NCBI RefSeq assembly: GCF_004526345.1
Contig: NZ_CP038213.1
Coordinates: 434,001-498,000, forward strand
DNA length: 64,000 bases
Direction of reading: 5' to 3'
Source: Ornithinimicrobium flavum
GTDB lineage: Bacteria; Actinomycetota; Actinomycetes; Actinomycetales; Dermatophilaceae
The position numbers and the translations under genes are program-made. The notes under the pieces were generated by a model. It saw only the letters and a list, made by a program, of their open reading frames with translations, was not told the origin of the DNA and did not search any database. Of the stretch, positions 38,724-58,710 are shown in pieces. Each line of letters begins with the position of its first letter. Positions within the stretch are counted from its first letter, which is position 1.

Positions 38724-39380
38724 TCATGCGTTCGCCCTGTACACGTCGGCCATGGTCGGTTCAGGGCAGGCTTCCCGCGCGGAGAGGTCTCCCGAGGCAT
38801 CGGTCGCCTCGTGGGCGAACCACGGAGGTTGGATATCGGTGCCACCTTCGTACATCGCGAGGTACAAACTAATAAAGATCTCACGACTGCTTGGATCGGT
38901 CACCGGGTATCCCCCCGCCAACAAGCATTCCCTCGCCTGGAGCTGAAGATCATAAAGGGTGCCGAGCTCCTCCCGAGTCATCGGATCGCCACCCGGGACT
39001 GGCCCCGCCTCGGCTTCGCACGCCTGGATGGCCTCTTCGAAAGCAGCCCGCTGCTCCGGAGGCGGGTCCCAAATGTCGAGCCCGTCCCCAGCCATCTGCG
39101 CCCTAAATCCTGCCTCCCGCAGGCATTCGCCCTTGGTCTGAAGCCAGGCGCGCTGCAGATCCTCCAGATTACGTGGCCGGGCGGCCGGAGCGCTCGGCGC
39201 GGCTCCGTGCGCGGGTGACGTAGCGGGCACCGGTGCGGAAGCAGTGTCTGCACTGCTCACCTCAGTGGAGCGGACAGGGGCGTTCGCGCCAGCTTCCCCC
39301 GAACCTTCTGGACCAGCAAGACAAGCTCCCAGAAGCAGTGGGAGAGCGGCAGCACCCAATATCGCCGTTCTCAGTTTCAC
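38724..39380 (-). CDS. cassette lipoprotein 1 (four-cysteine family, unknown)
   Basis: A 218-residue lipoprotein: lipobox LLLGAC with Cys20, then a Ser/Ala/Pro linker to about residue 68. The folded part has the cysteine layout shared by all five cassette lipoproteins here: GECLREAGF, AIQACEAEAG, LYDLQLQARECLLAGGYPVT with PSSREIF after it, and REACPEP near the end. Four cysteines outside the membrane suggest two disulfides. It starts (GTG 39380) 6 nt after its secreted partner. Function unknown. Codon use is less GC-biased than the core, suggesting transfer. Confidence 0.8.
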   Translation of the reverse strand: MKLRTAILGAAALPLLLGACLAGPEGSGEAGANAPVRSTEVSSADTASAPVPATSPAHGAAPSAPAARPRNLEDLQRAWLQTKGECLREAGFRAQMAGDGLDIWDPPPEQRAAFEEAIQACEAEAGPVPGGDPMTREELGTLYDLQLQARECLLAGGYPVTDPSSREIFISLYLAMYEGGTDIQPPWFAHEATDASGDLSAREACPEPTMADVYRANA

Positions 39381-39386
39381 TGGCGA

Positions 39387-39713
39387 TCACGGATTGCGGC
39401 AGATGCCACGCGTGTTGCTGGAGTCGAGATTCGCCGGCGTCGTCACATGCCAGTAACCGCCATTGTACGTTCCGTACACATATCGCGTCTGATACTGCGT
39501 GCCGTTGACAAACTCTCTATAGAAGTTCTGTCCCGGGCCTTTCACCTGGGTAGTCCCCGAGGTCCGGGCCTGCACCCAGGGGTCTGACGGCTGTATGCAG
39601 TCGATCCGATAGAGGTACCCATCCTTCTGCGCAGCGAATGCTGGAATAGCTAAACCTACGACAAGTAATCCCCCCAGAAGTGATCCTACGATCTTCCGCC
39701 CTGTCCCCTGCAT
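39387..39713 (-). CDS. cassette secreted protein 1 (two-cysteine, unknown)
   Basis: A 108-residue exported protein: signal peptide VGSLLGGLLVVGLAIPAFAA, then about 80 mature residues with one cysteine near the start (YLYRIDCIQPSDPWVQAR) and one near the end (TRGICRNP). The segments KGPGQNFY and GTYNGGYWHV recur in the secreted protein at 58372-58710, so these two are close paralogues. GGGAGGC precedes the ATG at 39713. It is the first gene of its pair. Confidence 0.82.
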   Translation of the reverse strand: MQGTGRKIVGSLLGGLLVVGLAIPAFAAQKDGYLYRIDCIQPSDPWVQARTSGTTQVKGPGQNFYREFVNGTQYQTRYVYGTYNGGYWHVTTPANLDSSNTRGICRNP

Positions 39714-39997
39714 GACTGCCTCCCTAGTCCAGGTGACGGTTGCCCACGATGGCAGCGTCAGAAGCGCAGACACTATGGGATGGGAACGCGCGGGGTCAAC
39801 CCTGGCCCCGGCTCGGGGGGGGAGGGTGCGCCTGGCCCGTCGTGTGTGTCGCTCCAGGTTTCGCTCCGCCCGCCGAGGCATCCGCTCTTGCCGCAACTGG
39901 TAAGCAGTCGGGACCCGCTTTCGACATGCGTGGCAGACTCCAACCATGTGCCATCAGCACGTGGAGCTTCACGCCCATGAATGAGGTTAGTTAGCGG

Positions 39998-40295
39998 GTG
40001 AATGCGCGCAGGGCCCGGGGAGGAGCGTGCGTGGGATGGACTCTGCTCGCCTGTGGACTGCTCGCTTCCTGTAACGGTCCCGACGGTGACACCTCGTCTC
40101 CGGACACGGCCCGCAGCACAGTCCAGGAGGTGGCCCGTGGGTACTACGCGGACATCGCTCAGTGCCTTACCGACCAAGGGTTCCCCACGACCTACGACCC
40201 GGACGAGATCCGGATGGAGATCAAGGCGGACGCTGCGCAGGACCAGGACCTCCAGAAGGCAGAGGCGCACTGCCGACGTGTTCACGGTCCGGCCT
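39998..40295 (+). pseudogene. cassette-family lipoprotein cut by an IS remnant
   Basis: From GTG 39998 the frame gives a lipoprotein signal (LLACGLLASC), a short linker and the first cysteine blocks of the family (DIAQCLTDQGFPTTYD and KAEAHCRRVHGP). At about 40295 it runs into antisense transposase sequence and the second half with the GYP block is missing. No secreted partner lies upstream. Family assignment is by pattern, not alignment. Confidence 0.65.
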
Positions 40296-40834
40296 CGACC
40301 TCGTCCCCGGCCTTGCGGACGGTGATCGAGGACCGCAGCAACGGGGAGGGCTTGGTCGTGGCAGTGCCGCGCAGCTGCTCCGTGGCCTTGGCCGGTGCCA
40401 GGTACCGGTCGATCGTGGCCGCGCTCATCGACAGCAGCTCGGCCCGCACCTCGGGGCTGTACCTGCCCTGCGGGTCCAGCCGACCCGATCCCTGCAGGGG
40501 CGAGCTCACCATGGCGTTCCTGGGCGTCGAGTTGGGTGCGCATCGAGGCGGCCAGGTACTTCCCGCACTGCCCTCCGGAGGCCGCCCACACCCGCTGCAG
40601 CACCTTGGTCGCGTCGTAGGAGTACTTCGGTGCCCGCGGCCGTCGGGGCCGGGTCGCTACCTGCCGGCCCGACCCCGGCGGCGACTTCGCCGCCTCGGTC
40701 AGCCGGCGGCGGGCGTTGTCCCGCGACCAGCCGGTCACCGAGACCACCTCGTCCAGGATCTGGCCACGCACCTTCTTCCCCGCGCTCACGTACGTCCTGG
40801 CGTACCGCGTCGTCACCTCGGCACGAGACCTCAT
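40296..40834 (-). pseudogene. integrase-core transposase remnant
   Basis: The N-terminal half of a DDE-integrase transposase: MRSRAEVTTRYARTYVSAGK, VVSVTGWSRDNARRRLTEAA, YDATKVLQRVWAASGGQCGK, then in another frame from about 40510 SPEVRAELLSMSAATIDRYL and SSITVRKAGDEVEA. It stops where the lipoprotein remnant begins. One frameshift plus the lost catalytic half make it dead. Confidence 0.75.
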
Positions 40835-40880
40835 CGACAGCCCACCATCCATGTCCCAGGGTGGCACCCAGCAGCCCCCT

Positions 40881-40934
40881 CGTTTCGCGGGCATTCTTAG
40901 TTGAGGCACCAGGCCCGTTTCGCGGGCACTTTAG
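40881..40934. repeat. two direct repeats at the IS remnant end
   Basis: CGTTTCGCGGGCATTCTTAG (40881-40900) and CGTTTCGCGGGCACTTTAG (40916-40934) differ at two or three positions. They lie upstream of the integrase-type transposase start and may be its terminal repeats. Confidence 0.55.
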
Positions 40935-41006
40935 GTGAGTCTCGTCGGATCCTTGACGAACACGGGCGCTAGGCCTAACTTCTTTTGTACATCAAAGGAG
41001 TCAACG

Positions 41007-41339
41007 ATGACCAAGATGAAGTTCTATGCTGTTAGCCTGGCAGTGGCGCTGCTTCTCAGCATCCTGCCAACGGCTGGAGCCTCGGCGGCGTCGAGTTCTG
41101 GACAACTCGGCTGCTCGACCAACTTCCAGCCCGCTCTCACGACCTACACACAGTCGTACCTCACGCACACCCACACGCACACGTCCTCGAGTGGCAGGAC
41201 CGAGACGTATAGAGGACAAGGGACGCTGCGTTTCACGTCGCAGGCACCTTTCCTTCACACCAGGTGGACGGCGACCAATCACTCGTGGGAGGCGTGGGAC
41301 CGGACGCCGTGGATCCGGTGCGTGTCTCGCCCGCTCTAG
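41007..41339 (+). CDS. cassette secreted protein 2 (His/Thr repeat)
   Basis: A 110-residue exported protein with a strong SD (AAAGGAG, 6 nt before ATG 41007) and signal peptide FYAVSLAVALLLSILPTAGA. The mature part has one early cysteine (GQLGCSTNF) and one late (WIRCVSRPL), like the other cassette secreted proteins. It also has a His/Thr run, YLTHTHTHTSSSG, which could bind metal. The next gene, the lipoprotein, overlaps or follows closely. Confidence 0.8.
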   Translation: MTKMKFYAVSLAVALLLSILPTAGASAASSSGQLGCSTNFQPALTTYTQSYLTHTHTHTSSSGRTETYRGQGTLRFTSQAPFLHTRWTATNHSWEAWDRTPWIRCVSRPL

Positions 41340-42084
41340 GCCGAGGGTCGGGGAGGACAGCGACGTGCGTCGCTGTTCTGACCATAGCCTCGAGCGTTCT
41401 GCTCGCAGCCTGCGACGCGGGTCGACCGACCCGCCGAGCGCTGATACACCGACGACCCCCGAAACAGAGACGGCTTCGCCACCGCCCACGCAGGCGGCCG
41501 GCGACCTCAATGACGAGCCGGGCGACGTTTCCTCGGTGGACGAGGAACTGCCTGAGTGGGAGCCTCCGGTCTTCACCCGGGAGGACTGGCTGAGTTGGTC
41601 GAACTACGACCTCGATGAGTTGCCCGAGGTCGCCGTGATCCGGGAGATCAACCTTGAGGAGCAGGAGGAGGTCATCATCGCCTGCATGGCCGACCAGGGA
41701 TTCAGCGGTGAGTACGATGCCCAGAGCGGGGGGACCAGATGGAGCTATCCCACCGAGCAGCAGGACGCGTTCACGCTGGCGATGTATACCTGTGACGCGA
41801 GCTATCCGCTCGCGCCGGAGTACTACCAGCCCTACTCGACCGAGCAGCTGGTGCAGATCTACTCGTGGCAGGTCGAGCAGACCCTGCCCTGCGTAGAGGA
41901 GCGCGGTTACGAGGCCGGGGAACCGCCGACCCTGACGGCTTACGTCGAGTGGTACTCAGAGCGGATGACGCCGATGTGGGACCCGCTCCGGGAGGTCATC
42001 GGCCAGACCGACGACCAGTCGTTCAGGGAGTTGGAGCAGGACTGCCCCGGCCTCCCGCCCGCCGACCAGCTCTACGGCAGCTGA
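41318..42084 (+). CDS. cassette lipoprotein 2 (four-cysteine family, frameshift near the N-terminus)
   Basis: The body (from about 41415, one frame) carries the family blocks IIACMADQGFSGEYD, AMYTCDASYPLAPEYY, QIYSWQVEQTLPCVEERGYE with EPPTLTAYVEWY after it, and EQDCPGLPPADQLYG. The lipoprotein signal (TIASSVLLAACDAG) is in a different frame. One base lost in the GGG run at about 41413-41417 would join them. The start is uncertain: GTG 41318 in the signal frame, or GTG 41365, which has an excellent SD (GGGGAGG) but then needs a second shift. Function unknown. Confidence 0.72.
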
Positions 42085-42111
42085 CCTCGGTATCGGCCAA
42101 CCTCTGGGCGA

Positions 42112-42586
42112 ATCGGCTTCGCCCCCCGGGGCGCGTTCGACCTCATGAACGCCGCCTGGTCCGACGTCGCGACCGCGATGCAGGTGAGCGCGTACTCGCT
42201 GAAGTCGCTGGCTGCCGCGGATGGGCCAGGGCGGCTCGATCGTCGGGCTCACCTTCGACGCGCAGTACGCCTGGCCGGTCTACGACTGGATGGGCGTGTC
42301 GAAGGCGGCGTTCGAGGCGACCAGCCGTTACCTGGCCCGCGACCTCGGGCCGCTCGGCATCCGCTCCAACCTGGTCTCCGCCGGCCCGATCGCGACCACC
42401 GCGGCCAAGTCGATCCCGGACTTCGAGCAGTTCGCCAAGTGGGGCGAGCACTCGCCGCTGGGCTGGGACGTCAAGGACCCGGTGCCCGCCGCCCAGGCCT
42501 GCGTGGCGCCGCTCTCCGACTGGTTCCCCGCCACGACCGGCGAGATCGTGCACGTCGACGGGGGCTACCACGCGACCGGGTTCTAG
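42112..42586 (+). pseudogene. fabI: enoyl-ACP reductase (FabI/InhA) fragment
   Basis: The last 155 residues of an enoyl-ACP reductase: AFDLMNAAWSDVATAMQVSA, then after a frameshift near 42215 MGQGGSIVGLTFDAQYAWPV, YDWMGVSKAAFEATSRYLAR (the catalytic Tyr/Lys region) and TTGEIVHVDGGYHATGF. The N-terminal cofactor-binding half is absent. It sits directly behind a cassette lipoprotein, so it was probably carried in with a recombination event. Confidence 0.8.
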
Positions 42587-42906
42587 CCGGAGTGCCTTCA
42601 AGCCCTTTAGTCGTGGCAGGCGATCAGCGATCGTTTCACGGGTCGGCCGGTGTGGTCGTCGTGCAAGATGACAACAGTGAGGGCGAGGAGACCTCCAGAT
42701 ACGAACGATCACGCCGGCGAGGTTTGTCCGCCGTGGCTTCTGGGTCGAGCTCTACCTTGAAGGCGTCCTTGATCGACTCGGATGATCTGGCGCAACGAAT
42801 TGGAGAATCCGGCGCCCAGCCGTTGGGCCACCGGTCGAAGATGTTGTGCGGGCTGCAAGGCGCCCTCAGCCGTCGGACTGGCGCCTGCCCGCCCACCTGG
42901 TTGAGG
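42587..42906. other. no gene recognised
   Basis: About 320 bases between the fabI fragment and cassette lipoprotein 3. Short open frames on both strands show no signal peptide, SD or known motif. It may hold the end of a lost gene. Confidence 0.35.
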
Positions 42907-43488
42907 TCAACTCCCTGAGGGTGGGGATGGCGTTTCCTCGGGGGCAAAGAGCCCCCACGGATCAATCTGAGGGCAGTCTCGGAGCACCTCGTTCTCCCAC
43001 TCCCATGGAGAGACCGCGTGGACTACCTCAGAGTGCGCGAGCCAAGGCGGCCCTGCCTCGGACTCATAGCCTTCGACAAAGGCCTCCTTACTGGACGGCT
43101 CCGCCACTGGGTAGCCGTGCTCACGCAGACAGGCTGCTGCTCGCAACTCTGCGTCGTACACGTCTTCCAACATTCCCCGATCGAAAGGAGGATTGAGAGG
43201 TACCGGCCCTGCCACCGACAGGCATTCAGAATCCAGGCCACCTTCAGAGGGCCGGTTCGGCACACTGAAACCTTCCCAGCCGCCTCCACGCCGATGTATG
43301 GGCTGCAGGCCCGCATCGCGAAGGCACTCGACGAAGGCACTTTCCCAGCGTCGATGCTCCAGCACGTAGTCGCCGTATGCCTCTCGGGCCGACCCGGCTG
43401 TCTCCTCCGATGACGGTGAAGCACCCGACGAACAGCCGGCTAGTGACACCGTAAGGAGGATTGCGGCGACTAGCCGGTCAAGCGGCAA
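42907..43488 (-). CDS. cassette lipoprotein 3 (four-cysteine family, unknown)
   Basis: A 193-residue lipoprotein: signal VAAILLTVSLAGC (lipid Cys19), then VECLRDAGLQPIHR, DSECLSVAG, DVYDAELRAAACLREHGYPV with EPSSKEAFVEGYE after it, and LRDCPQIDPWGLF. The cysteine spacing matches the other four. The TTG at 43488 overlaps the end of the secreted gene by 19 nt, so translation is probably coupled. Confidence 0.78.
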   Translation of the reverse strand: MPLDRLVAAILLTVSLAGCSSGASPSSEETAGSAREAYGDYVLEHRRWESAFVECLRDAGLQPIHRRGGGWEGFSVPNRPSEGGLDSECLSVAGPVPLNPPFDRGMLEDVYDAELRAAACLREHGYPVAEPSSKEAFVEGYESEAGPPWLAHSEVVHAVSPWEWENEVLRDCPQIDPWGLFAPEETPSPPSGS

Positions 43489-43811
43489 GAAGGCACCAAG
43501 TTACGGTAGGTGTCATTGGCGACGACGCGGTAGTAGCCCCCACCTGTCATGCGACCACCGTCCGTGATCGTCCTGTAAACGCCGCCGGTGTTCTGCCACT
43601 CCGGGTAAGCTCCCCCAGTTTGCCAATCACCCGGGCCCCAGGTGTTGCCCGTGCCTCGCAACTGCAGGGTGATCACGCCTGTGTTGTTGTTGGGACACGG
43701 ATGATGCCGAATCCCCGAATCGGCAGCCGCAGACGCGGGGCCAGCCATCGCGACGGTCAGCGCGATGCCAGCCGCTAAACCAGTCACCTTGCTTCTCAAG
43801 CGTGATTCCAT
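43470..43811 (-). CDS. cassette secreted protein 3 (two-cysteine, unknown)
   Basis: A 113-residue exported protein: signal VTGLAAGIALTVAMAGPASA, then about 85 mature residues with cysteines in RHHPCPNNNTG and LVPSCRLTG. The middle (GTGNTWGPGDWQTGGAYPEW and GGGYYRVVANDTY) resembles the GPG and GGYW parts of secreted proteins 1 and 5. The ATG is at 43811. Confidence 0.78.
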   Translation of the reverse strand: MESRLRSKVTGLAAGIALTVAMAGPASAAADSGIRHHPCPNNNTGVITLQLRGTGNTWGPGDWQTGGAYPEWQNTGGVYRTITDGGRMTGGGYYRVVANDTYRNLVPSCRLTG

Positions 43812-43944
43812 GTCCCACCCCTTCGTTTTGTGCGACGCCGTCGTCGCCTCTGAGTACAGAGTGGCGTGTCTACACCCGATACGCAACCCCCGGGTAGGTA
43901 GAGAGTTGCGACGCACCGGTCAGAGGTGCACCTCGTAGTTAAAC

Positions 43945-44544
<600 letters not shown>

Positions 44545-44562
44545 CAAACTCGGGGCGATTCA

Positions 44563-44795
44563 GGTCGATGATGAAGAGGCTTCACAACACCCGGTTCCTT
44601 GCGTACACCTTCCCGTCTCGTTCACCAGGCACGGCCCGTCCGGTAGTGCCGAAGCGCCCTGACTTTGTCGCGGCTGCTCCCGCCCTCCCCGGCGATCCCC
44701 GGTTCAGGCTGCCGCCAACTTCACCCAGCCGCTACGACGACCAGACGATGCAGGTCTCTCACCTCCATCCGAAACAACAGCGCCTCGTGGCGCAC
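44563..44795 (-). mobile_element. 5' fragment of a group II intron
   Basis: Beginning at 44795 on the minus strand (GTGCGCCACGAGGCG) this 233-nt stretch parallels the first 233 nt of the complete intron at 47431. It ends at about 44563, next to the IS3 remnant. It sits in the same codon position of an ISL3 transposase as the complete intron does. Confidence 0.82.
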
Positions 44796-45335
44796 CACGT
44801 GCTCATCCACGCCCAGGGTTGACACGCCGGCGAAGCGGGACTCGTCCTCGGCCGCCGCGGCCAGGATCGGCTTGATCGCGGCCCACACCGTGCGCCACCG
44901 CACACCGAGCTGGCGGGCCACGCCCTGCACCGAGGCGTGCTCCCTGCGGATCTGCCCGATGGCCCATCGCGCGGCGGGGGTGGTGAGCAGCCCGCGCGGG
45001 CGGACCAGGTCTGGTTCCTGCTCGGTGAACGTCCGCACTGCGCATCCGTCCTCGCGGCACCGGTAGCGGCGCTTGCGCCAGATGAGCACGACCGGGGTGT
45101 CGAAGCAGGGCGCGTCGACCAGCCGCACCGCCCGCCGGCTGTGCGCCTCCGCGACCCTCCCGCAGGTCGGACACCCGACCGGTGCCTGCGCCGACTCCAC
45201 CGTCACGGTAAGCAGGTCCGGTTCCCGCCGGACGGCTTTCAGGTGCAGCCCGTCCAGGCCGACGAGCAAGTCGCAGTTGTCGCAGTACGCGCCGCCGGCG
45301 CTCCAGGCGCGGCAGCACGACGTAGGCTGATTCAC
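44796..45335 (-). pseudogene. ISL3-family transposase, 5' exon only (copy B)
   Basis: 180 codons of an ISL3 transposase: YCDNCDLLVGLDGLHLKAV, zinc-finger-like CPTCGRVAEA, RKRRYRCREDGCAVRTFTEQ and LGVRWRTVWAAIKPIL, ending VDEHV exactly where the intron fragment starts. The GTG is at 45335. The second half is missing. An ISL3 terminal repeat follows at 45434-45459 (ACCCCACCCTCAAAGACG). It is about 80% like copy A by eye and in inverted orientation to it. Confidence 0.85.
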
Positions 45336-45433
45336 GTCGAGGTCCTCGGAGATCAGGGTGAGGTAAGAGTCCTCTGATCATTGGGGACCTCGACACGTCC
45401 CGGCCTCACCCAGCGCGTCGGCGCGCCGCCCTC

Positions 45434-45459
45434 ACCCCACCCTCAAAGACGAAGAGCCC
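45434..45459. repeat. ISL3 terminal inverted repeat, copy B
   Basis: ACCCCACCCTCAAAGACGAA plus GAGCCC: the reverse complement matches the left end of the ISL3 element at 46769-46793. Confidence 0.75.
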
Positions 45460-45557
45460 GATAACTGTTGGTCGGGGCGAGATGGTTATGCCACGGACAG
45501 TCTCGGGCACGATCGTCTCACGAATGCTGAAGCCGGGTGCGGCGCGACCTGACTGAT

Positions 45558-45579
45558 GTCACGATGTGGTCACGATGTG
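45558..45579. repeat. perfect 11-bp tandem repeat upstream of cassette 4
   Basis: TCACGATGTGG occurs twice back to back at 45558 and 45569, about 90 nt before the secreted gene at 45671. It could be an operator. Nothing else was recognised in 45460-45670. Confidence 0.6.
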
Positions 45580-45670
45580 GTCCGCGAAGCGTTGCATCAA
45601 CTAGGCGAGGGCACCATTCTGGCTGGGAACACGGGGCTTCCGTAGCAGTTTCCGGACGACGGAGTTCAGA

Positions 45671-46042
45671 ATGCGACGTGAATGGATATTCAAGGGCGAG
45701 ATGTGGAGCCGGTGGACGGCTGCGGGACTTGGTGGGTTGCTAGCTGTCACTCTGCTGGGCACGATTCCCGCTCAGGCAGCTGTGATCCGGTCGGGCACGG
45801 TCTACTGTAGCGCCGGCCAGCAGCTGATCATCTCCTCGGACACGGTTGGTCAAACTTACCATCGGGTCACCAACAGTTCAGGTTCCACCAGGACCTACAA
45901 TCATGGCTTCCGCGACTACCCTTACCCGAGCAACACCAGGGCCGCAACCTGGACGGGGTTGCGAGTCGCGGCTGGCGAGATCGAAGCGCCGCACATACTG
46001 ACAAGCCCACCCGGGCACCAGCGGTTCTACTGTGCCGGATGA
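45671..46042 (+). CDS. cassette secreted protein 4 (two-cysteine, unknown)
   Basis: A 123-residue exported protein: signal WTAAGLGGLLAVTLLGTIPA with AQA before the cut, then about 85 residues with one cysteine near the start (GTVYCSAGQQLI) and one three residues from the end (RFYCAG). GGAG lies 6 nt before ATG 45671; ATG 45701 is an alternative. It overlaps the lipoprotein gene by 11 nt. Confidence 0.78.
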   Translation: MRREWIFKGEMWSRWTAAGLGGLLAVTLLGTIPAQAAVIRSGTVYCSAGQQLIISSDTVGQTYHRVTNSSGSTRTYNHGFRDYPYPSNTRAATWTGLRVAAGEIEAPHILTSPPGHQRFYCAG

Positions 46043-46703
46043 CGATGCCTTTACTGTCGACGTGGTCGGAAGGCGCCGACAGTGGGCAACAACCGTAGGG
46101 CTTGCCCTAGTTCTGACTGGCTGCGCTTCGGGCCCGGAGGGAAGCGCCGACGGGGGCGGCACAGCCTTGGCGCCTCTCACTCATGAGGAGGAGTTGGAAC
46201 GCCTCGCCGTCGATTTTGGCTTGGATCCGAGGAGTCTGCCGCAGGTGGACGTGGTGCGCGAGATCAGTCCTGAGGAGTCAGATGAGGTTACTTCCGAGTG
46301 CATGACAGAGCAAGGCTTCCCGCCGGACCGGCAGGGAGGCACGATGAGCTGGACGACCCCGGACGGGCAGTTACTCGGCCTGAATACTGCGCTGTACGTT
46401 TGCCAGGCGAAGTACCCAGTGGCTCACCGGTATCGCGAATCCCTCTCGAGGGCGCAGCTGGAGCTGGTGTACGACCACCAGGTCGAGGTGATGGTGCCCT
46501 GCATCCGGGAGCTGGGTTACGACGTGCCGGAGCCACCGAGCCGCGAGCGATTCCTGGAGCGGGACGGGGCCTGGGAGGAGCTGGGGGAGTTGGAACCGCA
46601 AGTGGTCCAGGACGCCATCCGGACGGGCCGTTGGGAGTCCTACCAAGACTTTCTGGACGCCTGCCCGCCCATGCCCCCCCAAGATGTGCTCTACGGAGGC
46701 TGA
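46032..46703 (+). CDS. cassette lipoprotein 4 (four-cysteine family, unknown)
   Basis: A lipoprotein of up to 223 residues: signal TTVGLALVLTGCASG, then TSECMTEQGFPPDRQ, ALYVCQAKYPVAHRY, LVYDHQVEVMVPCIRELGYD with EPPSRERFLERD after it, and LDACPPMPPQDVLYG. The last block closely resembles that of lipoprotein 2 (CPGLPPADQLYG). GTG 46032 overlaps the secreted gene; GTG 46062 would put the lipid Cys at a more usual position (21). Confidence 0.78.
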   Translation: MPDDDAFTVDVVGRRRQWATTVGLALVLTGCASGPEGSADGGGTALAPLTHEEELERLAVDFGLDPRSLPQVDVVREISPEESDEVTSECMTEQGFPPDRQGGTMSWTTPDGQLLGLNTALYVCQAKYPVAHRYRESLSRAQLELVYDHQVEVMVPCIRELGYDVPEPPSRERFLERDGAWEELGELEPQVVQDAIRTGRWESYQDFLDACPPMPPQDVLYGG

Positions 46704-46890
46704 CGGCTTACTCCGCCCTCTATTGCGCGCATGGCAGGTTGGCGACTACCCGGATGCGGCAGACATCCGGCTCTTCGTCTTTGAGGGTGGGGTGAGGGCG
46801 GCGCGCCGATGCGCTGGGTGAGGCCGGATGGGGTCGAGGTCCCCGATGATCAGAGGACTCTTACCTCTCCTGATCTCCAAGGACCTCGAC

Positions 46891-47430
46891 GTGAATCACC
46901 CTACGTCGTGCTGCCGCGCCCCGGGCGCTGGCAGCGCGTACTGCGACAGCTGCGACCTGTTTCTGGGCCTCGACGGCCTGCACGTGCTCGCCGTCGAGCG
47001 GTCCCCGAACCTGCTCACCGTCACGGTGGAGTCCGCGCCGGGCCCGGCCGGTTGCCCCACCTGCGGGGTGCTCGCCGAGGCCGTGGGTCGACGAACGGTA
47101 AGGCTGATCGACGCGCCGTGCTACACCACACCCGTCGTCCTGCTGTGGCGCAAGCGCCGCTACCGCTGCCGGGAGGATGCCTGCGAGAGGGTCACGTTCA
47201 CCGAGCAGGAACCGGACCTTGCCCGTCCTCGCGGGTTGCTCATCACCAGGGCGGCACGGTGGGCGATCGGCCAGATCCGGCGCGAGCACGCCAGCGTCCA
47301 GGGCATCGCCCGCCAGCTCGGCGTGCGGTGGCGCACCGTCTGGTCCGCGATCAAGCCGATCCTGGCCGCCGCGGCCGAGGATGAGACCCGCTTCGCCGGT
47401 GTGTCCACCCTCGGGGTCGATGAGCACATC
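46891..47430 (+). CDS. ISL3-family transposase, 5' exon (copy A)
   Basis: 180 codons from GTG 46891 (after AAGGACCTCGAC): CCRAPGAGSAYCDSCDLFLG, CPTCGVLAEAVGRR, RKRRYRCREDACERVTFTEQ, SIKPIL-type LGVRWRTVWSAIKPIL, ending in the catalytic STLGVDEHI. The next base starts the intron (GTGCGCC). After splicing it joins WHHVSTKPVADGG at 49610 with no change of frame, restoring the normal DEH-W-HHVS sequence. Confidence 0.88.
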
Positions 47431-48032
47431 GTGCGCCACGAGGCGCTGTTGTTTCGGATGGAGGTGAGAGACCTGCATCGCCTGGTCGTCGTAGCGGCTG
47501 GGTGAAGTTGGCGGCAGCCTGAACCGGGGATCGCCGGGGAGGGTGGGAGCAGCCGCGACGAAGTCAGGGCGGTTCGGCACTACCGGACGGGCCGTGCCTG
47601 GTGAACGAGACGGGAAGGTGTACGCAAGGAACCGGTGTTGTGAAGCCTCTTCATCGTCGACCAGCTCGAACCCGGTGGATCTGGGCTGGTGAGCGGTGCG
47701 TACCTGCCCCTTGTGGTGGCTGCCAGCCAGGTGGCCGTCGGGGGGCAGGGAACTGTCGGGACGGTTGTATGTGTCGGGCCTGGCAGGTCGTGGTGAAGGT
47801 CTACGGCGTAGCCACGACGAGACCGCAGGGGCAAAGCCGGGCGCCTCGCCCGTTGACCGAGCAACAGTGAACGTGGGAACCGCCCGTAGTCCGTTCCCCG
47901 CCCTCGTGGCGGGGATAGGTCCGATGCCGACCGAAGGGTGCGGGTGGGGCGGAGCCGTCGTAGTACTCCGAGGCCGGGAGAGCCGGTCGCATGGGGAAGG
48001 ACGGCAGCGAGAGGAAGCAAGGAGGGACTGTG

Positions 48033-49493
48033 ATGTCCGAAGACGCGTCGGTGAACACCGGCGCCGTGATCTGGCCCGAGCATGAGTGGGCCCAGGTGAC
48101 GGTACGGAGGATGCAGACCAAGCTGCATTGTTGGGCGGTCGGGGACCCCGGCCGCCGGTTCGACGATCTGTACAACCTGGTCTGTGACCCGGCGTTCCTG
48201 GTGGTGGCGTGGCAACGCGTCGCGGGGAACAAGGGGTCGCGGACGCCGGGGGTGGACCGGGCCACCGTGGCCTGGATCGCTTCCCGGATCGGGGTCGAGG
48301 AGTTCCTGAACGGCGTCCGCGCGCAGTTACGGGCGCGGACGTTCTGCCCGGTCGAGGTACGTCAGGTGGAGATTCCCAAGGCCAGCGGCAAGGTCCGCAG
48401 GCTGGGGATCCCGACCGTGACCGACCGGGTGGTGCAGGCGGCTCTGAAACTGGTGCTGGAACCGATCTTCGAGGCGGACTTCGCTCCGTGCTCGTACGGT
48501 TTCCGCCCGAACCGGCGCGCGCAGGACGCCATCGCCGAGATCCATCACTTCACCACCAAGTCCTACCACTGGGTGCTGGAGGCCGACATCGAGGCGTGCT
48601 TCGACAGGATCGATCACGTCGCCCTGTTGGACAGGGTCCGAACGCGGATCGGCGACAAGCGCGTGACCAGGCTGGTCAAGTCGTTCCTCAAGGCCGGGGT
48701 GATGACCACCACCGGCTCGCGGGAGGCGACGCACACCGGCACCCCGCAGGGCGGGATCTTGTCCCCGTTGCTGGCCAACATCGCCCTGTCCACGCTGGAT
48801 GATCACTTCATCACCGCGTGGGAGCAACAGATGGGCACCGAGGTCCAGCGGCAGCGCCGCAAGCGACAAGGCAGGCCCAACTACCGTCTGGTCCGGTACG
48901 CCGACGACTTCGTCGTCCTGGTCACCGGGCAGCGGGAGCACGCCGAGCAGTTGCGGACGGAGGTGGCAGGCGTGCTGGCCCCGATGGGCCTGCGCCTGTC
49001 ACCGGAGAAGACCCGTGTGGTCCACATCGAGGACGGGTTCGACTTCCTCGGCTTCAACATCCGTCGGATGCGCAGGCGAGGGAGCAACAAGTGGTTCGTG
49101 TACACCAAGCCCTCGAAGAAGGCGATCGCCTCGATCAAGGGCCGGGTGAAATCCATGACGTACAGAGCGACCCTGCACCACGATCCCGGGTACTTGTTCG
49201 AGTACCTGGGCCGGGTGCTGCGAGGGTGGGCCAACTACTTCCGGCACGGCGTGTCCAAAGCGACCTTCTCCGCGGTCGACTCCTATGCGTGGGAGCGGAT
49301 CACGGCCTGGTTGCGGGACAAGCACAAGATCGGATGGCCAGAGTTACGGCGCAGGTTCTGCCTGCCCGGGACCTGGCGGCTCGCCGTCGACGGGCAACGG
49401 TTCCGGGGCGCAGCCAGCGTCTCCGTCGTCCGGTACCGCTACCGCGGCTACCGGATCCCGACCCCGTGGACACCGACAGTCACCACCGGCTGA
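48033..49493 (+). CDS. ltrA: group II intron reverse transcriptase/maturase
   Basis: A 486-residue intron-encoded protein needed for splicing and retrohoming. RT blocks in order: TPGVDRATV, KASGKVRRLGIPTVTDRVVQ, YGFRPNRRAQDAI, LEADIEACFDRIDH (RT2), GTPQGGILSPLLANIALSTL, YRLVRYADDFVVLVTG (catalytic YADD), DFLGFNIRR. The maturase X domain has GYLFEYLGRVLRGWANYFRH. No clear HNH endonuclease motif is seen at the C-terminus. ATG 48033 has an AAGGAGGG SD. Confidence 0.93.
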   Translation: MSEDASVNTGAVIWPEHEWAQVTVRRMQTKLHCWAVGDPGRRFDDLYNLVCDPAFLVVAWQRVAGNKGSRTPGVDRATVAWIASRIGVEEFLNGVRAQLRARTFCPVEVRQVEIPKASGKVRRLGIPTVTDRVVQAALKLVLEPIFEADFAPCSYGFRPNRRAQDAIAEIHHFTTKSYHWVLEADIEACFDRIDHVALLDRVRTRIGDKRVTRLVKSFLKAGVMTTTGSREATHTGTPQGGILSPLLANIALSTLDDHFITAWEQQMGTEVQRQRRKRQGRPNYRLVRYADDFVVLVTGQREHAEQLRTEVAGVLAPMGLRLSPEKTRVVHIEDGFDFLGFNIRRMRRRGSNKWFVYTKPSKKAIASIKGRVKSMTYRATLHHDPGYLFEYLGRVLRGWANYFRHGVSKATFSAVDSYAWERITAWLRDKHKIGWPELRRRFCLPGTWRLAVDGQRFRGAASVSVVRYRYRGYRIPTPWTPTVTTG

Positions 49494-49512
49494 GCAACAA
49501 CCACCTCGTGGA

Positions 49513-49609: not shown

Positions 49610-50405
49610 TGGCACCACGTCTCCACCAAGCCCGTCGCCGACGGTGGCCGCGGACCGAAGGAGCTCACCGGCATGGTCGACCTGACCAGATACAAGAACG
49701 GGCAGGTCAGGGCACGACTGCTCGACCTCGTCCCGGGCCGCACCAGGGCCGCCTACGCCGACTGGTTGACGGCCCGCGGCAAAGACTTCACCGCCGGCAT
49801 CCGTGTCGCCACCCTCGGCCCGTTCCAGGGATACAACACCGCGATCGATGAGGAGCTGGCCGAGGCCACCGCCGTGCTCGACGTCTTCCACGTCGTCGCC
49901 CTGGGCACCAAGTGCGTCGACGAGGTCCGCCGCCGGGTCCAGCAGGCCTCCACGGGGCACCGCGGGCGCAAGGGCGACCCGCTCTACGGGATCCAGAACA
50001 TCCTGCGCGCCGGCGCGGAGAACCTCACCGACAAGCAACGCGCCCGGATCGAGCGGGCATTCGCCGCGAACGAGGCCCACGATGAGGTCGACCTTGCCTG
50101 GCAGTGCGCCCAGCAGCTGCGCTCGGCCTACAAGCACGCCGACAAGGCCGAGGGCCGAGCGATCGTCGAGCGCATCGTCGCCTCCTTCCCCTCCTGCCCG
50201 ATACCCGAGATTGCCCGCCTTGGTCGAACCCTGCGCAAGTGGAAGGACGCCCTCCTGGCCTACTTCACGACCAACGCCTCCAACGGCGGCACCGAGGCCA
50301 TCAACGGCCTCATCGAGCTCCACCGCCGCATCGCCCGAGGCCTGACCAACTTCGAGAACTACCGCCTGCGCATGCCGCCTCATCGGCGGAGGCCTGAACC
50401 TATGA
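49610..50405 (+). CDS. ISL3-family transposase, 3' exon (copy A)
   Basis: The second half of the transposase: WHHVSTKPVADGGRG, LTGMVDLTRYKNGQVRARLL, FTAGIRVATLGPFQGYNTAI, VLDVFHVVALGTKCVDEVRR and the final catalytic glutamate in NGGTEAINGLIELHRR. The last residues need one extra base removed near 50373 (ATGCCGCC) to end LIGGGLNL and stop at 50403-50405; without this the frame runs on into IS256 sequence. Confidence 0.83.
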
Positions 50406-50427
50406 CCCCACCCTCAAAGACGAGGAG

Positions 50428-50767
50428 GGTCTGTCCGATGAACGGTGTTTCCGGCGTTCATCTCAGAGGTTCTCCGCGGCCGGCATGCGGTCGGCGAAGG
50501 TGACGGCGAAAGCGTTGAGCGCGGGCTTCCACCGCATGGTCCATCGTGCCTGCCCGGTGCCCTTGGGGTCCAACCCGCGGGTCACCAGGTAGAGGCACTT
50601 CAGCGCGGCCTGCTCGGTCGGGAAGTGCCCGTGCACGGTCACCGCCCGTCGGTACCTGGCGTGCAAGCTCTCGATGGCGTTGGTGGAGAACAGCACCCGG
50701 CGGATTTCGACGTCGTAGGCCAGGAAGGGTATCAACTCCAACCGCAGAGCTGCTGTTTCATGGCGAT
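50428..50767 (-). pseudogene. IS256-family transposase C-terminal fragment
   Basis: About 100 residues of the end of an IS256 transposase: EIRRVLFSTNAIESLHARYR (catalytic Glu region), RAVTVHGHFPTEQAALKCLY and PALNAFAVTFADRMPAAENL. It includes the IS256 end (TCTGTCCGATGAACGG) directly against the ISL3 right repeat. The closely similar longer copy is at 55966-57366. Confidence 0.8.
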
Positions 50768-50942
50768 GACACCGATCACCCGCTGACGCACGAGCTGGCG
50801 TGGCTGTCTCCCATTCGGCAGGTCGGGGTCGGTGCGCGTCCTGGTTATCCACGACCGCAGCCGACCGCCGTCCTGCACCGTTACCCGTACGACCGTGGCA
50901 TCCTTCGTGCACTAACGATCTCTCGGCGGTCTCTTTGAGTAC

Positions 50943-52797: not shown

Positions 52798-52960
52798 CTA
52801 GCCTGCGGCGCGTCCGACTTGCCGCTGATCGCGCGACCGTTCGCGCAGACGTCCGGATGTTCCATAAGCCTCCTACGAGGCTGGCCCCAGCCGCCGGGAA
52901 AGCAGACTCGGTGGTGGCGACGCCTCATGCGCGCAACACTCAGTCCCACCGCCCAGGAGT

Positions 52961-53446: not shown

Positions 53447-53673
53447 CGAGAGTCCACAAGTGATTCGAATCGATGCTCCCGCCGGTGCTCCCCTTCAGCG
53501 CCCCCCTGGTCTGTACGCATCCCCATGACCGGGACACTATCGGGGATCACTCGATCACGCACTCACATGCCGCTGCTGGTGAAGGGGAATCCGGATCGTC
53601 CTCGAGGTGCGTCTGGGGTAGATCCGGAAGGTCACGGTTCGATCGCGTTCTGTCCGTCTCGTGGTCCTCTGAT

Positions 53674-55306
53674 CCTGGATCCGCCGAGCGGGTTTCGTGA
53701 GGAGGTCGCGCGTCGCTGAAGACGATTTTTGGAGCGGGTCGGGGTTCTGGGCGTGGGAGGTCCGCCGGTCTGCCCGGCTTTTCCACTTGTGGTCGTTCCT
53801 CGAAGGGTCAGGGGGCTGGGTCAGGAGGGGGCGTAGGCGGCGTCGTGGAGGCCAAGCCAGGGGTGCTGCCAGGGCCAGTTCGTGGGCAGGTGCAGGTGGA
53901 GTCGTCGGGCCCGGTTGGCGATCCGGGCGGGGATCTTGATCAGCTCGTCGCGGATCGTGGCGGGTCGGGCCCAGGCGTGCCGGGTCGAGGCCAGGACGCC
54001 GGCGGCGCGGGTCAGGTTGTAGGCGATCGCGGCCAGCACCGTCCACGCACCGTTGGCCGAGAACGATCCGGAAGGGACGTGAGCCAGCGGCCCTGATTTC
54101 AGGTCGGCGATGACCTGCTCGACGATCGCGTGGTCACGGTGCGAGGCCTCCGCGGCCAGCATGGACAGGGGTGAGTCGGTGAACACGGCGTGGTGGCGGT
54201 AGGTCGCGAACAGCTCGTCCTGCCCGGCCTTGGTCGCCTTGGGGTTCAGGCGTCTGACGCGGCGCACGATGAGCCGGGCGGTGACGTGCTCGGCCTTCTT
54301 CCGGGACGTGAACGCTGTGTACTCGACCTCGGTGACCTGGGCGTCGGAGACCCACCGGTCCTCGGCCTGGTCCCAGATCGCGTTCGGGTACTTGATGGAC
54401 ACCCAGTCGTCCTCGGGGATCCGGGAGATCGCGGCGGTCACGGCCGGGTCCATCCGGGCGGTCAGGGAGAACCGGGCCCCGGCCCGGCGGGTCGCGGCGA
54501 CGACGTCGTGGTTGTAGTAGGCCGAGTCCGCGCGGACGGTCAGAGTGCCGGTGGCACCGGCCCGGCGGGCGGTGGCCAGCGCGTCGGCGATCAGCCGGGC
54601 CGCGCCGTGCGCCGAGGCGGCGTTGCCCTTGCGCAGCCTCGTGGCTGCGAGCACCGGTGCCGCGGTCGGGGTGGACAGGGTCGCGACCTGCACGTTCAGG
54701 CCCTTGACACCGGTGTAGCCGTACCCGACCCCTTCCTTGGCGTACCCGTGGGTCGCGCGGATCGTGTCGTCGACATCCAGGTAGGCGACCTGATCGGCGC
54801 CGGCCAGCAGGCCCGGGACGATACCGGCCAGGTTGGCCAGGACACGGGAGCCGACGGCGTCCAGCTGGCGGACGTGGCCGAAGGTGTAGCCGCGCAGGTG
54901 GGTGCCCAGCGTGGTCGGCGCCCGGAGTCCGGTGAAGACCCGGTCCATCCCACCGTGGCGCACCACGTCCATGTCCTCGATGCTGTCCGCGCCGGCGACC
55001 ATGCCCGCGACCAGCGAACTGACCTTGAGGTCGGCGTTGGCGCCGGCCGAGCCGGGCACGCTGACGTGCCCGGCCACCAGATCCTCCAGCCCGGCCTCCT
55101 CGGCCAAGCCCATCACCGGGACCAGGCCGGCCGTGCCGATCAGGTTCGGGTCATCGAACACGGCGGAGATGTTGTGGCAGACTCGCATTATCGGGTGCTC
55201 CTGTTTTCTGGTCGATCGAACTGTCGCAAGTCCAATCGTCCCAGGTCACAGGGGCATTCGTGTGTTACGACCCGGCTTGGTCACCCAATACATCGGCGGA
55301 TCGAGG
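53674..55306 (-). mobile_element. IS1380-family element, copy 2
   Basis: Ends CCTGGATCCGCCGAG (53674) and CATCGGCGGATCGAGG (to 55306) are inverted repeats. CTGAT is duplicated at 53669-53673 and 55307-55311. Confidence 0.85.
53821..55188 (-). CDS. IS1380-family transposase, copy 2 (intact)
   Basis: 455 residues without a break: SVFDDPNL-type AVFDDPNLIGTAGLVPVMGL, ADSIEDMDVVRHGGMDRVFT, VAYLDVDDTIRATHGYAKEG (first catalytic Asp region), LTVRADSAYYNHDVVAATRR (second) and HAIVEQVIADLKSGPLAHVP (Glu region). It looks functional. About 60% like copy 3 by eye. Confidence 0.93.
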   Translation of the reverse strand: MRVCHNISAVFDDPNLIGTAGLVPVMGLAEEAGLEDLVAGHVSVPGSAGANADLKVSSLVAGMVAGADSIEDMDVVRHGGMDRVFTGLRAPTTLGTHLRGYTFGHVRQLDAVGSRVLANLAGIVPGLLAGADQVAYLDVDDTIRATHGYAKEGVGYGYTGVKGLNVQVATLSTPTAAPVLAATRLRKGNAASAHGAARLIADALATARRAGATGTLTVRADSAYYNHDVVAATRRAGARFSLTARMDPAVTAAISRIPEDDWVSIKYPNAIWDQAEDRWVSDAQVTEVEYTAFTSRKKAEHVTARLIVRRVRRLNPKATKAGQDELFATYRHHAVFTDSPLSMLAAEASHRDHAIVEQVIADLKSGPLAHVPSGSFSANGAWTVLAAIAYNLTRAAGVLASTRHAWARPATIRDELIKIPARIANRARRLHLHLPTNWPWQHPWLGLHDAAYAPS

Positions 55307-55334
55307 CTGATCCGGACTGGCGCTACGTTCAGGC

Positions 55335-55769
55335 ATGCGCAACCGGGCCACCGCCGTCCTCGTTATCACCGCCGGCTTCGGCGTAGTGTTCTGGCTCGGC
55401 ACCGGACCCCTTGCGCTGCTGTACACGCCCCGTTGGGCTGCCGACGCGGTCCCCGTTTTCTTTGGTCCCCTGGCTCTGACCGCGGTCATGATGGTGCCCC
55501 GTTCAGCGCCTTGGAGTTTAGGTGGATACGGCGTGGGAGTCATCCTCGTTGAAGTGATCGGTGACCGGATATACCGGGCACAGCAGGCCCGCCTGCAATC
55601 GCAGTTAGCCGATCCCGGGTACTCACAGGACTGGGAACCGAGCCATCCCGGGTGGTGGATTTCGACCCTTATCTTCCTGACGTTGACAGGAATCGGGTGC
55701 TGGCGAGGGCGAGGAGCCGCCCGCCGCTCGGACGGAGCATCGGACCGCACACCTGCCCATGCCGGTTGA
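55335..55769 (+). CDS. small membrane protein of unknown function
   Basis: A 144-residue protein with about four hydrophobic stretches: TAVLVITAGFGVVFWLGTGP, VFFGPLALTAVMMVPRSAPW, GGYGVGVILVEVIGDRIYRA and HPGWWISTLIFLTLTGIGCW, with a basic tail. It starts 24 nt from the end of IS1380 copy 2, so its own promoter may have been displaced. Not recognised. Confidence 0.6.
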   Translation: MRNRATAVLVITAGFGVVFWLGTGPLALLYTPRWAADAVPVFFGPLALTAVMMVPRSAPWSLGGYGVGVILVEVIGDRIYRAQQARLQSQLADPGYSQDWEPSHPGWWISTLIFLTLTGIGCWRGRGAARRSDGASDRTPAHAG

Positions 55770-55965
55770 CATCCCCGTCGATGGTCGTTCCACGCTTGCG
55801 CTTCCCCACAAGCCAGGTCCAGGCCAAGTTCCCGGCAACCTGACCTGCCGCCGACCGGTCAGCACTCCGTCGTCGCCTCAGCTCCGCAACACCTCGAGAA
55901 AAGAGCGCAGCTCCGCGTTCACGCCGACTCAGGCCCGTCGAGCGAGGGGGTAGGTTCCCCGTTGG

Positions 55966-57366
55966 GTCTGTCCGATGAGCGGTGGTTCTGGCATTCATCT
56001 CAGAGGTTCTCCGCGGCCGGCATGCGGTCGGCGAAGGTGACCGGCGAAAGCGTTGAGCGCGGGCTTCCACCGCATGGTCCATCGTGCCTGCCCGGTGCCC
56101 TTGGGGTCTAGCCCGCGGGTCACCAGGTACAGGCACTTCAGGGCGGCCTGCTCGGTCGGGAAGTGCCCGCGCACGGTCACCGCGCGCCGGTACCTCGCGC
56201 GCAGGGACTCGATGGCGTTGGTGGAGAACAGCACGCGGCGGATCTTCAGGTCGTAGGCCAGGAAGGGGATGAACTCCTCCCACGCCGCTCTCCACATCTT
56301 CGGGATCGCGGGGTAGGGCTTGCCCCACTTCTCCTCAAGTTCCTCGAACGCCGCCCACGCCGCCTCGACCGAGGGTGCGGTGTAGATGCGACGAAGGTCC
56401 TTGGCCAGCTGGTCCCAGTACTTCCGGGAGGCGTACCGCAGCGTCGCCCGGATGAGGTGGATCACGCACGCCTGCACGATCGCCTGCGGGACCGCGTTCA
56501 CGGAGTCGGGCAGGCCCTTGAGGCCGTCGCAGACGATGAAGAAGACGTCGGCCACGCCGCGGTTCTTCAGGTCGGCCAGCACGTTCATCCAGACCTTCGC
56601 CGACTCCCCACCACCCTGCCCGGCCCACAGGCCGAGCACGTCCCGGCGACCCCCCAGGTCGACGCCGATCGCGGCGTAGAAGGGCTGGTTGCCGACCTGG
56701 CCGTCGCGGACCTTGACGTAGATCGCGTCGATGAAGATGGCGGCGTAGACGCCCTGCAACGGTCGGGAGGACCAGGTGGCCATCTCCTCCAGGACCTTGT
56801 CGGTGATCCGGCTGACGGTGTCCTTGGAGATCGAGGCTCCGTACACCTCCTGGAAGTGGGCGGAGATCTCACCGGTGGTCAGGCCCTTGGCGAACAGGAT
56901 GATCGCGACCGCGTCCACGTCCGAGAGGCGCCGCTGTCGCTTCTTGACGATCACCGGCTCGAAGGTGCCGGCCCGGTCGCGCGGCACCGCGATGGTCACC
57001 TACCCGGCGGCGTCGGTCAGGACCGTCTTGGGCCTCGTGCCGTTGCGGATGTTGCCGTTGCCGGACGTGGGTGCCTGATGCTTCTCGTGACCGAGGTGCT
57101 CGGTCAGCTCCTCTTCCAGGGCCGTCTCCAGGACGGTGGCGGTGATCGCCTTGAGCAGCCCGTCCGGGCCGGTCAGGTCCTCCCCACGGGCACGGGCAGC
57201 CCTGACCAGCTCCCGGACCGCGGTGCGCTCGGTCTCGCTGCGCGAGACCGTCTTCCTGGCTTCCTTCGGCATCGAGCTCATGCTCGAGATCTTCTCGGTC
57301 ATCTCATGACCTTCCCCGCCAGCGGTGCCGGCGCGTCGGGCCAGAAACACCGTTTAGCGGACAGTC
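55966..57366 (-). mobile_element. IS256-family element
   Basis: Inverted ends: TCTGTCCGATGAGCGGTGGT at about 55967 and, reversed at the right end, ACTGTCCGCTAAACGGTGTT. No clear 8-bp target duplication. Its insertion removed the start of the lipoprotein gene at 57372. Confidence 0.8.
55995..57302 (-). pseudogene. IS256-family transposase (nonsense codon and frameshift)
   Basis: From ATG 57302: LETALEEELTEHLGHEKHQA and TRPKTVLTDAAG, then TAG at 57002-57000 where GAG is expected before VTIAVPRDRAGTFEPVIVKK. The catalytic part is otherwise whole: YAAIFIDAIYVKVRDGQVGN (Asp), FFIVCDGLKGLPDSVNAV (Asp), VLFSTNAIESLRARYRRAVT (Glu). One extra C near 56041 spoils the last residues, which should read VTFADRMPAAENL. 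Two lesions make it inactive as read. Confidence 0.85.
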
Positions 57367-57371
57367 CCCCG

Positions 57372-57631
57372 CCTTGCTGATTGTCAGCGGCTGCGGCAGC
57401 ACTACGGCTGAGCAGGCTTCGGCCCCCAATCCCGCCTCGGCCGCCAGCGCACCCAACGTCGAGGCACCGACAGAAGCGAATGACGCAGAGGTCAGTCCGT
57501 CACCGCCGCAAGTCCCTGACGGGTACACCGGCCCGCACATTGAGGAACCCGCTCCAGTCCCAGCCTGCCCGGCGGTTAGGGCGAAGCTGTGGGCCACCAG
57601 CGGTAGGAGAGGGTCGGGAACGCCACCCTGA
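57372..57631 (+). pseudogene. lipoprotein remnant without its start
   Basis: The frame opens in the last part of a lipoprotein signal (LLIVSGCGSTTAEQ), continues with a Pro/Ala/Glu linker, and contains one more cysteine (PVPACPAVRAKLW) before stopping at 57631. The first residues of the signal peptide were removed by the IS256 insertion at 57366. It may belong to the cassette family but lacks the cysteine blocks. Confidence 0.55.
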
Positions 57632-57691
57632 CCGCACCCGAGAAGGAACACGGAAAGCAGCGGCGTCCCAGGGCGGGGCCACCCGGCGGAC

Positions 57692-58375
57692 TCACGGCGA
57701 CTTGTCCGCCAGCCAGGCGGTGATCTCGGGGCCCATGGGGTAGGGGCACGCTACTTCTGCCCGAAGATAGGCGTTCGGATCTTCAGGGTAGGGACTCCAG
57801 CGGTCGTCAAGGGCCTGCTCATTCCCTGCGTAGACGAGGTACTCGTTGGCGATGAAGGCGTCCACGCTCGGCGGCTCGGTCGATGGTGGGTAGCCACGCT
57901 GCCGGAGGCAGTCTGCTGACTCGACCAGGAGGGCGTGCTGGGCTCGGAGCTCGTCAGCTGAGTAGGGGATCTCGGTGGGAAGGGGCCCGAGCCTTTCCGT
58001 GATCGCCTCGTGGCATGCGGCTGACTGGGCCCGCCGAGCCTCGCGCTGATCTGATCCGCCGCCCGTGATCGTGATTCCCTCGCCGTCGTAGTGGGCGGGG
58101 AAGCCGTTCTCGGTGAGGCACGAAGCTTTGGCGGTCCACCACTGCCTGGCCATCTCGGCTTCGTTGCTCCGGTCGATCGGTGCCTCGGGGATGGCCATGC
58201 CCCACGCAGTCTCGCGGAGCGGGGCTGCCGTTGGGCCTCGCCCCGGATCGGGCTCAGCTACCCGCTGCGTGTGGGTTGCAGACTCCGTGGCCGGGTGACC
58301 GGAGTCGGTGCAGGCCGTCAGCGCCGCGCCAGCGGACACCAGGAGGATGACTGCACGGCTTCGGGGCAGGCTCAC
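57692..58375 (-). CDS. cassette lipoprotein 5 (four-cysteine family, unknown)
   Basis: A 227-residue lipoprotein: signal VILLVSAGAALTAC (lipid Cys22), then KASCLTENGFPAHYD, QSAACHEAITERLG, LLVESADCLRQRGYPPSTEP with PSVDAFIANEYLVY after it, and EVACPYPMGPEITAW. GTG 58375 shares 4 nt with the stop of its secreted partner (GTGA). Confidence 0.82.
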   Translation of the reverse strand: MSLPRSRAVILLVSAGAALTACTDSGHPATESATHTQRVAEPDPGRGPTAAPLRETAWGMAIPEAPIDRSNEAEMARQWWTAKASCLTENGFPAHYDGEGITITGGGSDQREARRAQSAACHEAITERLGPLPTEIPYSADELRAQHALLVESADCLRQRGYPPSTEPPSVDAFIANEYLVYAGNEQALDDRWSPYPEDPNAYLRAEVACPYPMGPEITAWLADKSP

Positions 58376-58710
58376 GGATTGAGACAGAAGGAGTAGGTGC
58401 CAGAGCTGCTGACGGTCCCGGATCCGGGCGCCTCAACCGACCAGTAGCCACCGTTGTACGTGCCAGCGACGTACCAGTAGCCCGGAGATCCGCTGCGTTC
58501 GGTCTCGTACGGCTGGCCTGGGCCAACAATGTTCAGGGTGCCCGATCCTTGTGCGCGCACCCACGGATCAGACGGCTGAATGCATGAGGAACGGTACCGG
58601 TACCCGTCCTTGAATCCGTACGCGCTGCCCGGTATCGCCGTTGATACCACCAGGGCCAGGGCGAGCGCGCCACACGCCACAACCTGCGAGACAGACTTTG
58701 AACGAACCAC
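58372..58710 (-). CDS. cassette secreted protein 5 (two-cysteine, unknown)
   Basis: A 112-residue exported protein: signal VVACGALALALVVSTAIPGS, then KDGYRYRSSCIQPSDPWVRA, IVGPGQPYET, GTYNGGYWSVEAPGSGT and a final FCLNP. It is a clear paralogue of secreted protein 1 (39387-39713), with both mature cysteines at the same places. GTG 58710 follows GGGAGCTTAGGA. Confidence 0.83.
   Translation of the reverse strand: MVRSKSVSQVVACGALALALVVSTAIPGSAYGFKDGYRYRSSCIQPSDPWVRAQGSGTLNIVGPGQPYETERSGSPGYWYVAGTYNGGYWSVEAPGSGTVSSSGTYSFCLNP

Follow-up and report, generated by a model that had tools for sequence, protein, structure and literature searches.

What does a gene pair do when it occurs five times in one stretch of a bacterial genome, each time joining a small exported two-cysteine protein to a lipoprotein that has four cysteines? 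The question is raised by 64,000 nt of the Ornithinimicrobium flavum genome (bases 434001-498000 of the single 3.71 Mb contig NZ_CP038213.1), hereafter the window, in which the exported protein is called S and the lipoprotein L. S and L form a conserved pair whose partners diverge jointly, genes for an ATP-binding cassette (ABC) pump adjoin the pair, and orphans are one-sided, in that S is almost always found with L while L often stands without S. A paired function of S and L is strongly supported. As to what this function is, the reading favoured here, with a confidence that only somewhat exceeds even, is that S may be a bacteriocin-like toxin and L its immunity lipoprotein, with the pump as a second protective or export step, in a system kept in multiple copies.

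Five S-L pairs in the window

The frames, order and spacing of the five pairs bear out the places that a sequence-only reading of the window had given them:

38724..39380, minus strand: L1, four-cysteine lipoprotein (reading frame, cysteine blocks)
39387..39713, minus strand: S1, small exported two-cysteine protein (reading frame, cysteine layout; profile 86.6 bits)
41007..41339, plus strand: S2, small exported two-cysteine protein (reading frame, cysteine layout; profile 63.4 bits)
41318..42084, plus strand: L2, lipoprotein gene in which a frame break separates signal from mature part (frames; intact relative P0001)
42907..43488, minus strand: L3, four-cysteine lipoprotein (reading frame, cysteine blocks)
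43470..43811, minus strand: S3, small exported two-cysteine protein (reading frame, cysteine layout; profile 57.4 bits)
45701..46042, plus strand, with an alternative start upstream at 45671: S4, small exported two-cysteine protein (profile 75.4 bits)
46032..46703, plus strand: L4, four-cysteine lipoprotein (cysteine blocks; helical model, mean pLDDT 86)
57692..58375, minus strand: L5, four-cysteine lipoprotein (reading frame, cysteine blocks)
58372..58710, minus strand: S5, small exported two-cysteine protein (reading frame, cysteine layout; profile 84.2 bits)

The two genes of pair 1 are 6 nt apart, while those of the other pairs overlap, by 22 nt in pair 2 (with the later start), 19 in pair 3, 11 in pair 4 and 4 in pair 5. 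All five S proteins have Sec-type, signal-peptide-like starts, as judged by eye, and their mature parts carry one cysteine close to each end. A strict form of this two-cysteine rule is satisfied by 15 of 18 S proteins that were kept out of the S profile; two of the other three have the first cysteine ahead of the rule's cut and the third (L124) is without the layout.

In L1, L3, L4 and L5 a lipobox cysteine is followed by four further cysteines in the blocks described from the sequence alone, and exactly four cysteines beyond the lipobox are present in 93 of 94 near-full lipobox L from relatives. A four-cysteine lipoprotein in every pair, as had been claimed, thus holds for these four but not for L2, whose signal and mature part occupy different frames in this assembly; its relative in the protein database, P0001, is intact. 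A match of L to a characterised family, named beforehand as something that would speak against a new system, was not found: no curated cut-off of Pfam or NCBIfam was reached, PADLOC was likewise without a match, and a comparison with the sequences of the Protein Data Bank (PDB) returned no relative at E < 0.2. The L4 model is confident and all-helical, with no clear match in the PDB. Among relatives of L, P0026, from Trueperella pyogenes, is annotated as hypothetical and represents 66 member sequences.

Neither the S of the window nor any of a set of 34 S proteins reached a curated Pfam or NCBIfam cut-off. Domain DUF6299 (PF19816) matches only S4 among the S of the window, at 19.9 bits against a gathering cut-off of 26.8, and one of the 34 S proteins; no S reaches this cut-off.

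Recurrence in related genomes and joint divergence

The pairs are beyond chance, as had been supposed, since their layout recurs in many genomes. The main set comprised 58 genomes, that of the window and 57 relatives, and all counts of the L profile over it are among the matches listed. L was found in 30 of the 58 (the matches in G026 and G044 being weak), namely in 25 of 31 genomes of the genus, own genome included, in none of five from other genera of the family, and in 5 of 22 from the rest of the order. Its spread is patchy, with zero to at least 17 copies per genome inside one genus. In wider samples, both of which count the own genome, L is present in 22 of 248 genomes of the order and in 10 of 296 of the class.

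A profile of S gave 55 matches of at least 30 bits in the 58 genomes, 52 of which adjoin an L, a proportion that holds for the family from which the profile was built, i.e., S found beside L. Forty-nine of these 52 have a same-strand L downstream and three are divergent, always with at most 251 nt between the matched parts. Of the three matches without an adjoining L, one, in G012, is separated from the next L by a transposase gene, another S of that genome precedes remnants that resemble L, and the third, in G056, lacks the two-cysteine layout.

The reverse association is much looser. The following counts, like those of gene orders and of 21 order-level genomes below, cover the fetched loci only, mostly with flanks of 1.5 kb, and a few of the L may be a single gene met more than once and cut at a locus edge. 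Among 144 distinct near-full L, S lies in tandem with 52 and divergently from 11 (683-714 nt away in three cases); one has another arrangement and 80 have no detectable S. This profile search supersedes an earlier heuristic search, which had placed an S upstream of 34 of the 94 near-full lipobox L, with an evidently false hit at L063. Among the 21 L-bearing genomes at the order level, S is detected in 10, in some weakly (down to 18 bits), and not in 11. It had been stated beforehand that L homologues usually lacking a secreted partner would speak against a paired system, and this objection applies in part (80 of 144 L, 11 of 21 genomes), while S without L is hardly seen (52 of 55 S with L). 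An S that almost always comes with L, together with an L that often comes without S, fits orphan immunity genes.

The partners also diverge together. Fifty-four of 58 pairs were retained for a Mantel test after removal of a convergent arrangement, divergent gaps above 300 nt and repeated S, and the distances of S correlate with those of L (r 0.66; none of 5000 permutations as high). When close L are thinned out, r is 0.51 (above 60% identity removed, n=47), 0.44 (above 45%, n=40) and 0.46 (above 35%, n=15), and at 30% L identity, where six pairs remain, the correlation is weak, as 198 of the 5000 permutations reach it. Within the two forms of L, r is 0.76 (long, n=36) and 0.82 (short, n=17).

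The contrast of a variable S with a conserved L, as had been read from the window, is not supported among near relatives. Over the 54 pairs, mean pairwise identity was 0.30 among mature S and 0.31 among L, the latter taken over the last 150 residues. Where L identity is at least 0.6, S is the better conserved of the two in 6 of 10 comparisons; the counts are 9 of 24 where it is 0.42-0.6 and 30 of 206 where it is 0.35-0.42. Between distant relatives the difference between L and S is small, with means of 0.37 versus 0.30. S is thus not clearly the faster-evolving partner.

Pump genes beside the pair

The locus had been taken to end at 58710. Three transporter genes at 61179-64000, overlooked at first, extend it:

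61179..62375, plus strand: adaptor-like (membrane-fusion-like) protein with a peptidoglycan-binding domain (PF01471), the adaptor role being suggested by layout
62382..63038, plus strand: ABC transporter ATPase (PF00005)
63035..64000, plus strand: FtsX-type permease (PF02687), which runs off the window

PF00005 and PF02687 score above their cut-offs, giving an ABC ATPase and a separate FtsX-type permease, as in a pump of the MacAB/YknXYZ type. The adaptor-like protein has the position of a membrane-fusion adaptor of the MacA/HlyD family and an N-terminal anchor; Pfam gives only its peptidoglycan-binding domain.

An adaptor-like protein with PF01471 and, by eye, an N-terminal anchor, encoded beside L in G010 (locus L045), served as query over the 58 genomes and was found in 28 of them at E 1e-10. 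With the weak matches of G026, G041, G044 and G054 left out, 26 genomes have both L and the adaptor, one L only, none the adaptor only and 31 neither; with these matches kept, the numbers are 27, 3, 1 and 27. The common gene order is S-L-adaptor-ATPase-FtsX; some genera have a divergent L, and there S heads the pump genes. The adaptor stands beside L in 14 of the 21 order-level genomes, and any part of the pump in 16. L and the adaptor occur without detectable S in 6 of the 21, S without pump genes in none. Pump genes usually form one set per genome. At L045 (7027-9956) cassettes are stacked, as if inserted into each other, and two L genes enclose a truncated adaptor gene.

Comparison with known systems

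Two known systems have similar working parts. The exported antimicrobial nisin is bound by the surface lipoprotein NisI (LanI), which jointly with the ABC transporter NisFEG protects the producer (PMC4828448, excerpt). A lipoprotein and an ABC transporter encoded beside an exported S resemble this arrangement, a likeness of gene layout only. Nisin is a modified peptide, whereas S has the look of an unmodified protein, some 80 residues long; the transporter here differs from NisFEG in its FtsX-type permease and in having an adaptor, and L matches no LanI model. The second system is SDP, a processed and secreted 42-residue peptide toxin that has one disulfide, against which the adaptor YknX, the ATPase YknY and the MacB-like permease YknZ protect the cell (PMC4887032, excerpt). 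Here too an adaptor-ATPase-permease pump goes alongside a secreted protein, but L has no counterpart in the excerpt's account of SDP, and no YknW-like gene was identified at the S-L loci. A further MacAB-like pump, Spr0693-0695 of Streptococcus pneumoniae, is tied to resistance to antimicrobial peptides (PMC5768738, excerpt); its adaptor, ATPase and permease are separate genes, as they are here, but no partner like S-L is mentioned in that excerpt. The S-L-pump module may thus be likened to LanI/LanFEG and to SDP/Ykn in its working parts, membership in either not being claimed.

The operon of lactococcin 972 likewise combines a small Sec-type secreted protein with transporter genes, but S is of a different sequence family and, judged by curated cut-offs and by profile comparison with true members, is not lactococcin 972. 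PF09683, the lactococcin 972 family, has no match at E 1 among the 34 S proteins and none in the window's own genome, and hhalign gave S probabilities of 0.1 to 1.1% against nine lactococcin-like proteins; two groups of S match one another at 76% (E 2e-5). One of the 34 S gave a sub-threshold match to TIGR01653 (E 0.0025), and none of eight S that were rescanned did. A true lactococcin 972 gene exists in the same genus, in G021 (L167 4397-7265; PF09683, 40.7 bits), where it is followed by the gene for a 654-residue protein with no Pfam or NCBIfam match and then by an ABC ATPase gene; no L lies within the 14 kb examined there.

In the open-licence literature of PubMed Central, no paper describing the S-L pair was found by title or start of the abstract, and others may exist outside it.

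A proposed bacteriocin-like toxin with self-protection

Toxin/immunity, signal/receptor and surface variation had been offered as possibilities for the pairs; the first now accounts best for the data. S was not found without L and pump genes while L and the pump were found without S, the two partners diverge jointly, the spread is patchy and multi-copy, with a recent duplication of a cassette, a MacAB/YknXYZ-type pump goes alongside, and nisin and SDP work alike; on these grounds a bacteriocin with an immunity lipoprotein is favoured. We infer that S would leave the cell by Sec, would probably be closed by one disulfide and would act on the envelope of competing relatives. L of the same cassette, at the outer surface of the producing cell's membrane, would neutralise the cell's own S, and the adaptor-ATPase-FtsX pump might either clear S from the envelope or aid its release. 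Extra L genes without S could protect against S from other cells.

Several points weigh against this reading. By profile, S is similar to no known bacteriocin, and no reliable fold was predicted for it, the S5 model being poor (mean pLDDT 55, strands only). Linked descent alone also yields a correlation of S and L distances, which says that the partners stay together and does not imply contact. The apparent absence of S beside many L may reflect the limited reach of the profile. Several S-L cassettes are remote from pump genes, and no processing or regulatory gene was identified at the loci, where no systematic search for regulators was made.

A broader proposal is made tentatively, its chances being put a little short of even: that the S are protein bacteriocins of an undescribed class in Actinomycetota, unmodified, exported by Sec and closed by a disulfide. 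Each would have an immunity L with four cysteines for itself, one MacAB-type pump would be shared, and the system would have expanded to many cassettes per genome, with lone L forming an immunity bank against neighbours.

The alternative that survives best, which we consider unlikely, is that S is a surface or matrix protein without toxicity that has an export route dedicated to it, in which L would take Sec-exported S and pass it to the adaptor-ATPase-FtsX pump for release through the wall. One operon holds S, L and pump genes in many genomes, the adaptor carries a peptidoglycan-binding domain, and MacAB-type pumps have been reported to release Sec-exported proteins too (PMC4887032, excerpt). 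An export helper without cargo is unexpected, however, so the six order-level genomes with L and pump genes but no detectable S, and the many L that stand alone, count against it.

Improbable in our view is that S is a secreted signal which L binds, the FtsX transporter sensing the complex. FtsX-type transporters can serve as sensors, BceAB-type transporters sense antimicrobial peptides, and the joint divergence of cognate S-L pairs would suit a signal and its receptor. Against it, L copies without S are common and regulators did not turn up as a consistent neighbour, though they were not searched for systematically; positive evidence for signalling was not obtained. That S is a variable surface protein with L as its anchor or partner is very improbable: S is exported, L is predicted to be surface-anchored and genomes hold multiple cassettes, but S does not clearly exceed L in variability, a switching element was not observed, and the pump genes and lone L would be left unexplained.

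Mobile elements and duplication

The five pairs lie in an island of about 65-68% G+C, between flanks of about 71-76%, that is crowded with transposase genes. Besides the pairs, it and its surroundings contain:

37093-38268, 44721-45335, 46828-47505, 49673-50503, 53821-55188, 55995-56999 and 59013-60419: transposase genes or parts, of at least five families (IS4/5, IS110, ISL3, DDE group 1, Mutator)
~39998..40306, plus strand: truncated sixth L, whose frame continues into unrelated sequence (reading frames)
47991..49493, plus strand: reverse transcriptase with a group II intron maturase domain, within the island (PF00078, PF08388)
59013..60419, plus strand: transposase gene between S5-L5 and the pump genes (PF13701)

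Scattering of the cassettes by insertion sequence elements, as had been suggested, is plausible from this setting, movement itself being the conjectural part. S4-L4 is flanked by inverted copies of an ISL3-type transposase (44563-45462 and 46765-47662, 86% identical), a composite-transposon-like arrangement, and S5-L5 by inverted copies of a DDE transposase (69% identical). A second cluster in the same genome, near 1.878 Mb (L013, G000:C1:1868001-1886000), contains S-L cassettes both whole and broken, including a copy of S1-L1 that is 98.4% identical over 1379 bp, its L being frame-broken, and an 83% copy of L4. The S1-L1 copy supports a recent duplication of the cassette, for which the transposases are candidate agents.

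Significance

If the bacteriocin-like reading is true, an unnamed competition system of Actinomycetota would become testable, and its cognate specificity would be readable from natural S-L pairs, of which there are dozens. Lone lipoproteins would then predict resistance, and a lipoprotein family without domain annotation would gain a function. Should S not be toxic, the module would still be an unrecognised system for the export or sensing of a secreted protein.

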